Shown here piece by piece: positions 33,215-52,091 of a DNA stretch of 64,000 bases. The notes beneath the pieces were generated by a model. That model was given only the letters and a program-made list of their open reading frames with translations. It was not told where the DNA came from and did no database searches. This DNA is from Modestobacter sp. VKM Ac-2986 (GTDB lineage: Bacteria; Actinomycetota; Actinomycetes; Mycobacteriales; Geodermatophilaceae): positions 558,001 through 622,000 of the forward strand of contig NZ_JAPVBH010000003.1 in the NCBI RefSeq assembly GCF_026967795.1. Direction: 5' to 3'. The position numbers and the translations under genes are program-made. Every line of letters starts with the position of its first letter. Position 1 is the first letter of the stretch.

Positions 33215-34759
33215 ATGACGATCACCGAGGAAGCCACCGGTCAGTCCCTGCGCCAGATCGGCACGCTGGTCCGCGATGCCCGGCGCCACCACGGCCTGAC
33301 GCAGTCCCAGCTCGCCGAGCGGCTGGGCACCAGCCAGAGCGCGATCGCCCGGATCGAGCAGGGCAACCAGAACCTCACCCTGGAGCTGCTGGGCCGGCTG
33401 TCGGCGGCCCTGGACAGCGAACTGATCACCGTCGGCCGTTCCGGCCCGACGCACCTGCGGGTCAGCGGCGGACTGCAGCTGTCGGGCAGCGTGACGGTGA
33501 AGTCGTCGAAGAACGCCGCCGTCGCCCTGCTGTGCGCCTCCCTGCTCAACCGCGGCCGCACCACGCTGCGCAACGTGTCCCGGATCGTGGAGGTCGACCG
33601 CATCCTCGACGTCCTCACCTCGATCGGGGTCTCCGCCACCTGGGACGCCGCCGGCCGCGACCTCACCCTCGTCGTCCCCGAGCAGCTGGACCTGACCGCG
33701 ATCGACGCCGACGCCGCCCGTCGGACCCGCAGCATCATCATGTTCCTGGGCCCGCTGCTGCACCGCGCCGAGCAGTTCGAGCTGCCCTACGCCGGCGGTT
33801 GCGACCTGGGCACCCGCACCATCGAGCCGCACATGATCGCGCTGCGGCACTTCGGCCTGCAGATCGAGGCGCACGCCGGTGAGTACCACGCCACCGTGCA
33901 GCGGCCGGAGTCCCGCGACCGCTCGATCGTGCTGACCGAGCGCGGGGACACCGTCACCGAGAACGCGCTGCTGGCCGCCGCCCGCCACGACGGGACCACC
34001 ACCATCCGCAACGCCAGCCCGAACTACATGGTCCAGGACCTGTGCCTGTACCTGGAGAAGCTCGGCGTGGGCATCTCCGGCTTCGGGACGACGACGCTGG
34101 TGGTCACCGGCTCGCCGGTGCTCGACGCCGACGTCGATTACACGATCTCCGAGGACCCGGTCGAGGCGATGAGCCTGCTGACCGCCGGCATCGTCACCGG
34201 CTCGGAGCTGACCGTGCGCCGCGCGCCGATCGAGTTCCTGGAGATCGAGCTGGCCACGCTCACCGAGATGGGCCTGCAGTACGACCTGTCGCCGGAGTAC
34301 GCCGCCGACAACGGCCGCACCCGACTGGTCGACGTCACCATCCACCCCTCGCAGCTGCGGGCGCCGATCGACAAGATCCACCCGATGCCGTTCCCGGGGC
34401 TCAACATCGACAACCTGCCGTTCTTCGCCGTCATCGCGGCCACCGCGACCGGCGAGACCGTCATCCACGACTGGGTCTACGACAACCGGGCCATCCACCT
34501 GTCCGACCTGACCCGCCTCGGCGCCGACGTCCGGCTGCTGGACCCGCACCGCGTGCTGGTCAACGGGCCCACCCGCTGGTCGGGGGCGGAGATCGTCTGC
34601 CCGCCGGCGCTGCGGCCCGCGGTGGTCATCCTGCTGGCGATGCTGGCCGCCAAGGGCGACTCGGTGCTGCGCAACGTCGACATCATCGCCCGCGGCTACG
34701 AGCAGCTCTACGAGCGCCTCGTCGAGATGGGCGCCCAGATCGAGGTCTTCACCGACTGA
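33215..34759 (+). CDS. XRE helix-turn-helix fused to UDP-N-acetylglucosamine 1-carboxyvinyltransferase (MurA-like)
   Basis: 514 residues. An XRE-type HTH (about 10-72: LTQSQLAERLGTSQSAIARIEQG) precedes a full EPSP-synthase-fold MurA domain (about 80-514). Catalytic features of MurA persist: Lys99-Asn100 (VTVKSSKNAA), the phosphoenolpyruvate-reactive Cys196 in YAGGCDLGTR, Asp in GLNIDNLPF, and RGYEQLYERL at the end. MurA makes the first committed peptidoglycan precursor, so either a second MurA or an enzyme-like regulator sensing UDP-GlcNAc is possible. The operator-like repeat 14 bases upstream suggests self-regulation. The fusion is visible; its role is inference. Confidence 0.9.
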   Translation: MTITEEATGQSLRQIGTLVRDARRHHGLTQSQLAERLGTSQSAIARIEQGNQNLTLELLGRLSAALDSELITVGRSGPTHLRVSGGLQLSGSVTVKSSKNAAVALLCASLLNRGRTTLRNVSRIVEVDRILDVLTSIGVSATWDAAGRDLTLVVPEQLDLTAIDADAARRTRSIIMFLGPLLHRAEQFELPYAGGCDLGTRTIEPHMIALRHFGLQIEAHAGEYHATVQRPESRDRSIVLTERGDTVTENALLAAARHDGTTTIRNASPNYMVQDLCLYLEKLGVGISGFGTTTLVVTGSPVLDADVDYTISEDPVEAMSLLTAGIVTGSELTVRRAPIEFLEIELATLTEMGLQYDLSPEYAADNGRTRLVDVTIHPSQLRAPIDKIHPMPFPGLNIDNLPFFAVIAATATGETVIHDWVYDNRAIHLSDLTRLGADVRLLDPHRVLVNGPTRWSGAEIVCPPALRPAVVILLAMLAAKGDSVLRNVDIIARGYEQLYERLVEMGAQIEVFTD

Positions 34760-34770
34760 CCCCTCCCCCT

Positions 34771-34804
34771 CTGGAGGGCGAAAGTGGCCACTTTCGCCCT
34801 CCAG
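34771..34804. terminator. 34-base perfect palindrome between the HTH-MurA and DUF559 genes
   Basis: The sequence is its own reverse complement over 34 bases with no spacer, centred at GTGGCCAC. It lies between convergent genes, so it can act as a terminator. Its central 26 bases recur exactly at 35744-35769. Confidence 0.8.
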
Positions 34805-34836
34805 GGAGACGGGACGGGCGGGGTCGCGTCCGCTCC

Positions 34837-35691
34837 TCAGTGGCCCAGCGCGGCCCGGACCCGGACGACGACGCCGTCGAGGTCCCGCAAGTCGGCGGCG
34901 CTGAGCCGGACCACCCGCCAGCCGGCCGCCTCCAGGCGGGCGAACCGCTCGTCGTCCCGGGCGATCTGGTCCCGCTCGAAGTGGTGGGCACCCTCGTACT
35001 CGACGAGCACCCGCTGCTCGGGGAAGGCGAGGTCCACCCGGCCGAGGAAGGCCCCCGACGACCAGACCTCGAACTGGGGCACCGGCGCCAGCCCGGCGAG
35101 CACCAGCGCCACCCGGACCCGCGACTCCGGCGGCGACTCAGCCCGTGGGTCCACCAGCCCGACCGCGCGGCGGACCCGCACCACGCCCCATCGGCCGGTG
35201 CCGTCCTCGACCTGAGCGGCCAGGGCGGACAGCGAGACCGAGCCGGAGCGGACCATCGCGTCCAGGGCGGCCACCGAGGTCCCGAGCGACTCCAGACCGG
35301 CGACGTCCCAGGCGGTGCGCAACGCCGAGGTGACCGGCACCCCGTCCCGCTGCTCGACGTCCCCGTCCGCCAGGTCCCCTCGTCGCACCCGGACCTCGCG
35401 GGGTCCCTTCCACAGCACGGACGGCGGCCGGATCACCGTCACCGGGTCGGTGGGGCCGGCGAAGGGCGCCCCGTGCCACGCGGCGGCGGAGTGACCGCCG
35501 ATCGCCGCCCCCGGTGGCAGGACCAGGGCCACGCCGGTGCACCGCAGCCGGTGGTCGAACTCCAGGCCGGGATCGGCGTAGACACCCTGGACGAGCCGAC
35601 GGTAGCTCCGCTCCCGCAGCTGCTTCGGGGTGAGCAGCCCCTCGGCGACCGCGTGGCTGCCGACGAAGACGCCCGTGAGGCGGGAACGCAT
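34837..35691 (-). CDS. DUF559-type (Vsr-like) endonuclease-domain protein with AbiEi-like N-terminal region
   Basis: 284 residues. The N-terminal part (LLTPKQLRERSYRRLVQGVYADP, about 14-40) resembles the winged-helix region of AbiEi-like antitoxins. The C-terminal part (about 185-284) has the Vsr/DUF559 nuclease layout: RVDLAFPEQRVLVEYEGAHH with Asp and Glu, then DERFARLEAAGWRVVRLSA. Start ATG at 35689-35691. The gene is flanked on both sides by perfect palindromes sharing a 26-base core. No adjacent toxin or methylase gene is seen. Catalytic activity and partner are unproven; such proteins are often multi-copy in actinobacteria. Confidence 0.78.
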   Translation of the reverse strand: MRSRLTGVFVGSHAVAEGLLTPKQLRERSYRRLVQGVYADPGLEFDHRLRCTGVALVLPPGAAIGGHSAAAWHGAPFAGPTDPVTVIRPPSVLWKGPREVRVRRGDLADGDVEQRDGVPVTSALRTAWDVAGLESLGTSVAALDAMVRSGSVSLSALAAQVEDGTGRWGVVRVRRAVGLVDPRAESPPESRVRVALVLAGLAPVPQFEVWSSGAFLGRVDLAFPEQRVLVEYEGAHHFERDQIARDDERFARLEAAGWRVVRLSAADLRDLDGVVVRVRAALGH

Positions 35692-35740
35692 CCGCCGAGC
35701 GTGCCGACTCCACCGCCGACGCCGCGCCCGTCGTCCACAG

Positions 35741-35772
35741 CCCAGGGCGAAAGTGGCCACTTTCGCCCTGGG
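35741..35772. repeat. 32-base perfect palindrome sharing a 26-base core with that at 34771
   Basis: Perfect self-complementary sequence between the DUF559 start and the stop of the membrane-protein gene upstream on the same strand. It may terminate the satD operon. The identical core flanks the DUF559 gene on both sides. Confidence 0.85.
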
Positions 35773-35782
35773 GAGGGGGCGG

Positions 35783-36304
35783 TCAGGAGTGGAGGAGGAC
35801 GCTGACGCCGACGCAGGCGAGGGCCCAGAGGCCGCTGGCGAGGGTGCCGATGATGAAGCGCTCGGCGGCGACCGGGGCCTTGAGCTCGTTGAACCGGCCC
35901 AGGCCCTTGACCGCGACCAGGACCGGCAGGCCCTCCTTGTACTGGGCCAGCACGACCGCGGCCACGGCCGTGCGCTCGAGGACGCCGATCCAGGTGCCAC
36001 CGCGCAGCACCTCCGGGTCCGAGGCCCGCCGCCGGTCCGGACCGCGGTCGGGGTCGGCGGCGCGCAGCACCGCGGTGGTGACCGGCCCGCCCCCGAGGGC
36101 GGCCGCGGTGACCGCCAGCACCACGCCGAGGGTCTCGACCTCGTCGCTGAGCCGACCGGTGCGCCACGCCAGCGCGGCTGCCACGGCCAGCACCGACACC
36201 AGGAACAGCGCCCCGGCCGGGCTGCGGCGGCGGTCGCTGCGCGGGGTCAGCGCGGCACCGGCGACGGTGACCACGGCGAGCAGGACGAGCACGGCGATGC
36301 TCAC
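35783..36304 (-). CDS. Membrane protein cotranscribed with a SatD-like regulator
   Basis: 173 residues with about four hydrophobic segments (residues about 2-20, 30-48, 58-80 and 150-172). Between the last two lies a conserved-looking amphipathic stretch LAQYKEGLPVLVAVKGLGRF, then NELKAPVAAERFIIGTLAS. It begins eight bases after the SatD-like stop, a standing arrangement for SatD operons as far as I recall. No enzymatic motif was recognised. The two proteins probably act together at the membrane, which is inference from order. Confidence 0.7.
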   Translation of the reverse strand: MSIAVLVLLAVVTVAGAALTPRSDRRRSPAGALFLVSVLAVAAALAWRTGRLSDEVETLGVVLAVTAAALGGGPVTTAVLRAADPDRGPDRRRASDPEVLRGGTWIGVLERTAVAAVVLAQYKEGLPVLVAVKGLGRFNELKAPVAAERFIIGTLASGLWALACVGVSVLLHS

Positions 36305-36311
36305 CGGCCGC

Positions 36312-36896
36312 TCACCCCGCTGCCCGGGCGAGCAACCGGGTGGCCACCGGTCGCAGGTCGCGCTCGATCTCCCAGCTGCCGGCGGCCAGCCGCTGGCCGA
36401 CCGCCTGCCGGGTGACCCCGAGCGCGGCCGCGGCCTCGACCTGGGTCCGGCCGGCCTCGACGTGCTCGACGGCCTCCCAGGCCTGGACGCTGCGCCGCTC
36501 GAGGAGGGCGGCCAGCGCGGTCAGCACCGCCTGGGCGTCACCGGCGGGCTCACCGACCACCCCCCGGACGGCGATCCGCACCGGACGCTTCTTGGCCGCC
36601 TCCACCGCGGCCCGGGCGGCGAGGAAGGCCGGACCGGCGCCGGCCCGGGTGCTGCTGGGCAGCGGCGTCTGCACCGGGCCGGCACCGATGCCGATGCTCC
36701 AGTCACCGTCACGGACCAGCCGCCGGACGGCCTCGACCACCGCCGCGGCGTCGTCCAGCACGCCCTGGAACTCGTCGCCCGCGGTGCGCTCGAACCGCAG
36801 CACGGTGGGCACGCCGGAGAGCACGGTGAGCGCGCCGGGCACCCGGTCGGGGGCGCGGCGGCTCCCCCGCTGGTCGATCGTCAGCACGAAGGGCAC
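36312..36896 (-). CDS. SatD-family protein with C-terminal helix-turn-helix
   Basis: 194 residues. It starts PFVLTIDQRGSRRAPDRV and contains FERTAGDEFQGVLDDA, reminiscent of the nucleotide-cyclase/GGDEF core, as in SatD proteins. The C-terminus (about 150-175: QVEAAAALGVTRQAVGQRL) is a DNA-binding helix-turn-helix. The GTG start lies 16 bases after a CTTGCA/TGCAAG inverted repeat in an unusually AT-rich patch. In Streptococcus SatD is tied to acid or secretion stress; no such role can be asserted here. It precedes its membrane partner by seven bases. Confidence 0.7.
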   Translation of the reverse strand: MPFVLTIDQRGSRRAPDRVPGALTVLSGVPTVLRFERTAGDEFQGVLDDAAAVVEAVRRLVRDGDWSIGIGAGPVQTPLPSSTRAGAGPAFLAARAAVEAAKKRPVRIAVRGVVGEPAGDAQAVLTALAALLERRSVQAWEAVEHVEAGRTQVEAAAALGVTRQAVGQRLAAGSWEIERDLRPVATRLLARAAG

Positions 36897-51966: not shown

Positions 51967-52017
51967 CCCCCTCGCCCCCCACCGCGAGCAAGCTCGCGCC
52001 GGGACCCTGCGAGGGGG
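51967..52017. terminator. Hairpin directly after sigF
   Basis: CCCCCTCGC (51967-51975) pairs with GCGAGGGGG (52009-52017) around an inner CGCGAG/CTCGCG hairpin, eight bases past the stop. Confidence 0.65.
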
Positions 52018-52020
52018 CCG

Positions 52021-52067
52021 GGACGCCAGTGGCCCAGGACCGAGTCGGTCCTGGGCCACTGGCGTCC
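52021..52067. terminator. 21-base-stem hairpin between sigF and the SPFH gene
   Basis: Perfect stem (52021-52041 with 52047-52067), loop GAGTC, between convergent genes; serves the SPFH transcript. Confidence 0.85.
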
Positions 52068-52091
52068 ACGCCTCGTCGCGGCGAGGACCTC

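Follow-up and report, generated by a model that had tools for sequence, protein, structure and literature searches.

Perfect palindromes around an AbiEi-DUF559 gene of Modestobacter point to a possible self-spreading DNA element

In this study, a Modestobacter gene whose product combines an AbiEi-like domain with a DUF559 nuclease-like domain was found to lie between two perfect palindromes that share one core. We suggest that the palindromes and the gene together make up a small element, selfish or domesticated, a reading to which we assign a probability of a little under 0.6; it would amount to a selfish system that resembles REPIN/RAYT pairs or homing genes and has the AbiEi-DUF559 nuclease at its center. 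Bracketing throughout the gene family, a copy number that follows the gene, the matching of palindrome type to gene, differences in place between species, exchange of the gene as a cassette and a fixed spacing of doublets are all shown by comparison of genomes, and from them we infer recognition, cutting and templated copying of the palindromes by the protein.

The stretch of DNA that was analyzed, referred to here as the window, spans 64 kb (G000:C9:558001-622000) of a 4.19-Mb genome (G000). The first palindrome (34771-34804, 34 bp) separates the DUF559 gene from a convergent murA-like gene, and the second (35741-35772, 32 bp) lies upstream of the DUF559 gene and directly follows the stop codon of the adjacent minus-strand gene. 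Both are perfect and spacer-free, and they have the 26-mer AGGGCGAAAGTGGCCACTTTCGCCCT in common, just as the earlier note had described them. With up to three mismatches allowed, the 24-mer core occurs at two places in the window, both of them these palindromes, compared with 0.00 expected from 100 dinucleotide shuffles. The gene that they enclose (34837-35691, minus strand; the ATG at 35691 is assumed to be its start) encodes 284 amino acids, and the motif CTGTGGACGAC (35730-35740, minus strand) is found between its start and the upstream palindrome. Two landmarks stand outside the element: the MurA-like gene (33215-34759, plus strand), with the occupied site at its 3' end, and a gene for a 173-amino-acid protein (35783-36304, minus strand) without a Pfam match at E 0.1, which is located near murA also in element-free genomes. 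The MurA-like gene joins an EPSP-synthase family domain to an N-terminal helix-turn-helix (HTH_3, E 2.9e-13). Elsewhere in the window, two 35-nt arms with 89% complementarity and 1 nt between them make up an inverted repeat at positions 52009-52079.

According to folding, both strands of each window palindrome yield stable RNA hairpins (-29 to -36 kcal/mol), but a terminator scan that requires a T run listed neither of them; for this reason their role as terminators, stated outright in the earlier note, is putative and is read from the hairpin and its position. An RNA family was considered as well and dropped, as an Rfam search of positions 34000-36500 gave no match at the gathering score.

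The domain content read from the sequence in the earlier note, a gene of Vsr/DUF559 type with an AbiEi-like N-terminus, was borne out. The protein matches Pfam DUF559 above the cut-off (E 2.7e-6, residues 219-280) and MTES_1575 below it, its N-terminus matches the PADLOC AbiEi models (best E 2.9e-8, residues 27-162), and the Y1 transposase family is absent from its Pfam matches; AbiEi_1 is matched in 12 of 74 family members. In an AlphaFold2 prediction built from 74 related sequences (mean pLDDT 93.2, pTM 0.89), an AbiEi-type fold is followed by a nuclease domain most similar to I-Bth0305I and Vsr. AbiEi of Streptococcus agalactiae (6y8q) is the match to residues 1-181 (Z 9.8, rmsd 6.3 over 172 residues), and residues 182-284 align with I-Bth0305I (Z 9.5, rmsd 2.6 over 93 residues), with 3hrl (Z 9.1) and with Vsr (Z 7.5, rmsd 1.9). 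The best PDB match by sequence profile is likewise I-Bth0305I, in the form of 3r3p (E 1.9e-5), deposited as 'Mobile intron protein'. Residues E189, D220, E231, H237 and D246 are invariant in all 74 sequences and are candidates for the residues of the EDxHD motif. Neither the MurA-like gene nor the unmatched 173-amino-acid gene shows a nucleotidyltransferase toxin family in Pfam. Carriage of the gene by plasmids or phages was dropped, with three plasmid records at 33-35% identity and no phage record.

Bracketing is widespread among relatives of the gene, which come from records named, among others, Modestobacter, Blastococcus and Geodermatophilus. The best 80 of 542 confirmed candidates from a protein search were sampled, of which 76 could be tested and four were lost at contig edges; from homology-defined gene ends, the bracket score takes a mismatch-tolerant segment common to both sides, and 513 other predicted genes at the same loci served as controls. 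At a score of at least 15, 61 of the 76 relatives are bracketed compared with 7 of the 513 controls, and at a score of at least 18 the counts are 50 of 76 and 0 of 513. This statistic was switched once, after the first result was known: the earlier version, with predicted gene starts and at least 14 shared bases, gave 15 of 46 against 2 of 395, with no ORF called for 33 DUF559 loci and one locus skipped at a contig edge. When spacer-free palindromes were required on both sides, 20 of 76 relatives and 5 of 513 controls remained, the other brackets consisting of looped or longer repeats instead, and by the score test 15 of the 76 relatives have no bracket. The bracketing repeats vary from one gene lineage to another. 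At loci named for genera that we take to belong to Micromonosporaceae or Pseudonocardiales, a bracket is present in three of eight (L141, L143 and L159, as opposed to L139, L142, L150, L151 and L154). Outside this split fall a 'Frankiales' metagenome bin, with one of its two loci bracketed, and a Bacillus-titled record, with neither of its two. The loci titled 'Bacillus sp. AZ43' (L087 and L135; SPQJ01000049.1 and SPQJ01000012.1, UNVERIFIED_ORG) carry genes 71% and 48% identical to the window protein, and this organism name is probably wrong.

A second feature recurs upstream of the gene. The word CTGTGGA occurs within 250 bp upstream in 61 of the 76 relatives and in 3 of the 513 control genes, and in 60 of those 61 loci it lies 49-79 bp upstream of the start codon, mostly at about 50-60 bp. 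The motif adjoins the upstream palindrome as CTGTGGACGACG, with the variant CTGTGGATAACC in L117, and it may be a promoter, be linked to replication or form part of a recognition site; CTGTGGACGAC and CTGTGGACGACG resemble a DnaA box.

In the window genome, all seven other listed protein matches are bracketed too (scores 34, 15, 18, 15, 34, 56 and 20 with 250-bp flanks, so that two score just 15), in each case by repeats other than the window palindrome. A short Vsr-like gene of the same genome has a bracket score of 9, and its predicted start may lie too far in. None of the five other Pfam DUF559 matches lies within 5 kb of the 33 copies of the window core, because those genes have repeats of their own. 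The link between the core and DUF559 genes that the earlier note envisaged thus failed for the paralogues of its own genome and survived in another form, as family-wide brackets made of other repeats. One paralogue (L293; G000:C8, gene at 452529) is bracketed by a hairpin centered on CAGGTGACCTG, with the score of 56; the same center is also intergenic in G016 and G019, orthologous to positions 120262 and 273212 of the G018 block, where relatives differ. These hairpins probably form another dispersed family, linked to a different paralogue. In 0.31 Mb of the window genome and in four sister-species blocks of 400 kb, two 11-base words from paralogue repeats occur 3-7 and 2-5 times per block, compared with 0 for the reversed words, and other words occur 0 or 1 times. 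All four blocks (L162-L241) also contain several palindromes centered on GTTCCACGTGGAAC, which we take to resemble parS.

The window palindrome itself is dispersed. Its 16-bp center has 15 copies in the window genome and the 24-mer with up to three mismatches has 33, both against 0 for the reversed control; several of the imperfect copies carry a transition in one arm, which places a G-T pair in the hairpin. By the calls of a purpose-written gene predictor, 24 of 28 pattern matches in 25 regions of the window genome are intergenic and four lie inside predicted genes, and 22 of 23 sites are intergenic in the four sister-species blocks. The 24 intergenic sites comprise 14 in convergent, 10 in tandem and none in divergent gene pairs, compared with 28, 59 and 27 among background pairs of the same regions with gaps of at least 40 bp, and in 23 of the 24 a predicted stop codon lies no more than 50 bp away. 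Past the core, the arms vary from site to site and yet stay complementary (a mean of 2.8 pairs against 0.9 when permuted; 0 of 5000 permutations over 24 sites). By eye, the 24 flanks in the window genome have no tetranucleotide in common. Half-sites number four in the window, all within the two palindromes, and 1 to 7 per type in the four 400-kb blocks, which is about the content of the perfect and imperfect palindromes there. A DNA uptake sequence was ruled out on this account, as single half-sites are not enriched. Carriage of other bracketed genes as cargo was likewise rejected, since the genes in the two cases seen (ferritin-like and cupin-like, named from their translations) seem to be ordinary ones that are flanked by a copy on either side.

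Such placement raises the question of whether the palindromes are plain bidirectional terminators, kept by selection and homogenized by general recombination, with the DUF559 gene merely having one at each end. The nearness of stop codons, the strong hairpins and the variable but complementary outer arms would all suit this explanation, which nonetheless has to contend with the missing T run, with the rarity of brackets around control genes at the same loci, with paralogues that carry other repeats and, as follows, with a copy number that tracks the presence of the gene; we regard it as quite improbable. Copies were counted with a degenerate pattern over the orthologue's bracketing types, for which the reversed pattern gave 0 in all 23 genus genomes. 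The 16 genomes with an orthologue (at least 68% identity) hold 19-70 copies and the seven without it 0-14 (U test, p 1e-4), where the pattern derives from orthologue-bracketing types, orthologue-free genomes could hold types that it does not see, and three of those seven genomes are only 67-72% complete. Among genomes at least 90% complete, the contrast is between 14 and 4 genomes (p 0.0017). The orthologue-free genome with 14 copies (G003) has a broken orthologue, and another (G012) has an orthologue-like fragment of 41 residues.

Palindrome type also goes with the gene. In 12 of 15 genomes, the type that brackets the orthologue is the commonest dispersed type (exact counts, five types), and none of 20,000 permutations reached the observed share; G008, whose core was not counted on its own, was left aside, and, related genomes being non-independent, this permutation and the p values given above describe a pattern and amount to no clean p value. 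The exceptions, in copies of the bracketing type against another, are G005 (11 against 19), G018 (13 against 15) and G021 (5 against 49), and they look like genomes in transition.

A comparison of 400-kb syntenic blocks from four close species (G016, G017, G018 and G019) covered nine orthologous site groups, two of them DUF559 brackets, which were read by eye together with decayed copies. Eight of the nine are occupied in all four species within flanks that are mostly 90-98% identical, and at the remaining one, 1.67 kb of other sequence is found in G019. Two or three types are present across the four species in seven of the nine; at G016:381243, for instance, G016, G017, G018 and G019 have P2, P1, P1 and P3, respectively, between flanks about 90-97% identical. 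Blocks of some 24-28 bp thus differ as wholes in conserved surroundings, and the comparison indicates that palindromes were replaced in place by others of another type. Palindrome-free convergent intergenic regions also diverge fast, with 15-46% of them below 0.65 identity. Gain of new sites stays open to doubt, because no clean palindrome-free ancestor was seen among the nine site groups.

Doublets show the same behavior. Among at least 243 exact copies listed, 19 of the 20 same-type neighbors less than 400 bp apart are separated by 50-55 bp and one pair by 31 bp; by their flanks, the 19 doublets fall into 11 groups, one of which joins two G009 doublets through a weak match. At four orthologous doublet sites, both palindromes switch type between species within flanks 82-93% identical. 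One such site is common to G000 (P0), G016 and G006 (both P2) and G011 (P3), a second to G017 (P3), G015 (P1) and G009 (P4), and the other two are each common to two species. The spacer is partly kept between G000 and G016 and little kept in the others. Mixed-type neighbors were also seen at 31-34 bp (G017:C1:432628/432663, G002:C41:22294/22326 and G001:C153:7456/7487), a spacing of about three helical turns compared with about five for the same-type doublets.

These observations bear on a further explanation, in which the protein binds DNA without any mobility: it would be a regulator or chromosome-binder, the palindromes its co-evolving sites and the bracket a matter of autoregulation. AbiEi and Rv2827c are reported to bind 23-bp inverted repeats and to repress their own promoters (PMC7319586, accessible part), the doublet spacing would suit a complex on one face of the helix, and agreement of type with gene in most genomes could follow from co-evolution. 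Stepwise evolution of sites, however, would hardly exchange whole 24-28 bp blocks between such similar flanks, autoregulation leaves the downstream palindrome unexplained, and the sites lie at gene 3' ends, with none in a divergent pair; the invariance of the nuclease residues in all 74 sequences is a further point against it. We therefore consider this explanation rather unlikely.

The 3' end of murA offers a view of the element at its own site. Among 23 genomes, the element is found in four (G000, G001, G007 and G009), remnants of it in two (G003 and G013) and one palindrome without the gene in four (G002, G016, G018 and G019); nine genomes have no such palindrome in the 200 bases examined, the locus is rearranged in G021, and the comparison stops short of the site in G011, G012 and G015. 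Occupied and empty sites, which the earlier note proposed to compare, were thus encountered in part, as occupied, decayed and gene-less versions of the murA site, and differential loss would look alike; the sister species displayed in-place replacement rather than clean empty sites.

Identities at the gene itself point to exchange. G002 and G019 are 98.2% identical in murA but 79.1% in DUF559, G000 and G007 are 97.2% and 75.4% identical, and in both pairs the palindrome types differ. Pairs of the same type have DUF559 identities of 93.7% (G002 and G018) and 90.5% (G017 and G019), although G006 and G016, against the pattern, have type P2 in common at only 72.4% identity. The DUF559 tree requires 8 type changes, a number as low in 8 of 200 shuffles, and the murA tree requires 10, as low in 142 of 200. 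Comparison of the genomes thus shows that the DUF559 gene was exchanged between related species as a cassette.

Neither this exchange nor the wholesale change of type in place would be explained if the protein were a caretaker of palindromes, that is, a Vsr-like enzyme that keeps them perfect by mending mismatched hairpins after extrusion (quasi-palindrome correction), with spread as a by-product. The modeled Vsr-like fold would fit such a function, as would the imperfect copies with a G-T pair in the hairpin, and VsrA of Caulobacter, a Vsr-like DUF559 protein, is described in the accessible part of its report as responsible for the SOS response in the absence of cytosine methyltransferase (PMC12907096). 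We consider this possibility very remote.

Under the selfish-element reading that we prefer, the following course of events could account for the data. The AbiEi-type N-domain would recognize a palindrome of about 24 bp of its own sequence type, and the Vsr/EDxHD-type nuclease domain would cut palindromic sites in the genome, those of older types included. During repair, the break would receive a copy of the palindrome that the element carries, so that a set of about 20-70 palindromes scattered over the genome, most of them at the 3' ends of genes, would be converted one by one to the type that belongs to the resident gene. The cassette as a whole would move between related species at its own site, in the fashion of a homing gene, and decay. 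Dispersed palindromes would be tolerated because hairpins past stop codons can serve as transcript ends or spare them. We propose this sequence of recognition, cutting and repair by analogy, since the 23-bp repeats of AbiEi are close to the palindrome in size and the target of I-Bth0305I, nearly 60 bp, is close to the doublet spacing.

A bolder version, to which we would give somewhat short of even odds, is that AbiEi-DUF559 nucleases represent a new class of bacterial mobile DNA that homes into genomic palindromes and overwrites them. An incoming allele would rewrite tens of intergenic hairpins of its host in place to its own type and leave a layered record of past invasions. The nuclease would assemble on the doublets, with their spacing of about five helical turns, and every paralogue would have a separate family of palindromes under its control.

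To our knowledge, Y1 transposases are the only type of enzyme known to partner REP sequences. If our reading is correct, a second and unrelated type of enzyme is tied to dispersed palindromes, and this lifestyle arose more than once. The reading would also suggest a role for DUF559, by name a 'domain of unknown function', where it is joined to an antitoxin fold, and the replacement of short words at fixed sites could be followed among close relatives in a directly testable system. Recurring repeats whose sequence at a given site changes from one close species to another point to a kind of self-spreading DNA that is undescribed. The literature on DUF559, Vsr/AbiEi, REP/REPIN/RAYT and Modestobacter palindromes, as far as it is openly accessible (most subscription papers and bioRxiv lie outside this scope), yielded no such system among the titles and abstracts listed, and the main text of the RepRanger survey of REP sequences contains neither 'DUF559' nor 'RAYT' (PMC12306157).

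Known systems resemble the element in separate parts. REP sequences and REPINs, with their RAYT (TnpA-REP) enzymes, are alike in that short, dispersed, intergenic palindromes occur beside a dedicated enzyme gene and that doublets of set spacing are over-represented (PMC3116915, accessible part); here, this spacing is 50-55 bp. A RAYT, however, is a Y1 (HUH) tyrosine transposase, whereas the present enzyme combines an AbiEi domain with a nuclease of DUF559/Vsr type. REP sequences are usually present in more than 100 copies, according to the accessible part of PMC2817692, and the present palindromes in tens. The foot of a REP palindrome bears a GTAG or CGTC tag, as the accessible part of PMC3733652 has it, and by eye the 24 sites of the window genome share no flanking tetranucleotide of this kind; the palindromes here are, moreover, perfect and spacer-free, and their sites are seemingly overwritten in place. 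The mobile unit of REP/RAYT kind that the earlier note had in mind therefore gains support from the brackets (61 of 76 against 7 of 513), from copies that follow the gene and from the match of type (12 of 15), and the likeness holds for dispersed palindromes that flank a dedicated gene; membership in that group does not, as the enzyme is not a Y1 transposase.

In the N-terminal 181 residues, the likeness is to the AbiEi antitoxin and Rv2827c of type IV toxin-antitoxin systems, which have this fold. Here, unlike in AbiE, the fold is fused to a nuclease, and neither flanking gene matches a nucleotidyltransferase toxin in Pfam. With VsrA of Caulobacter, the protein has DUF559 and likeness to Vsr in common, although VsrA is tied to cytosine methylation and the accessible part of its report makes no mention of palindromes (PMC12907096). 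Finally, I-Bth0305I, an EDxHD homing endonuclease of Vsr-like fold, dimerizes on a target of nearly 60 bp, as given in the accessible part of PMC3943268. In contrast to it, the element described here lies outside any intron or intein, has an AbiEi-fold DNA-binding part, a multi-copy palindrome family and putative cutting activity; the two are nevertheless alike in their nuclease fold, in a significant sequence match and in a cassette-like exchange at a fixed site.
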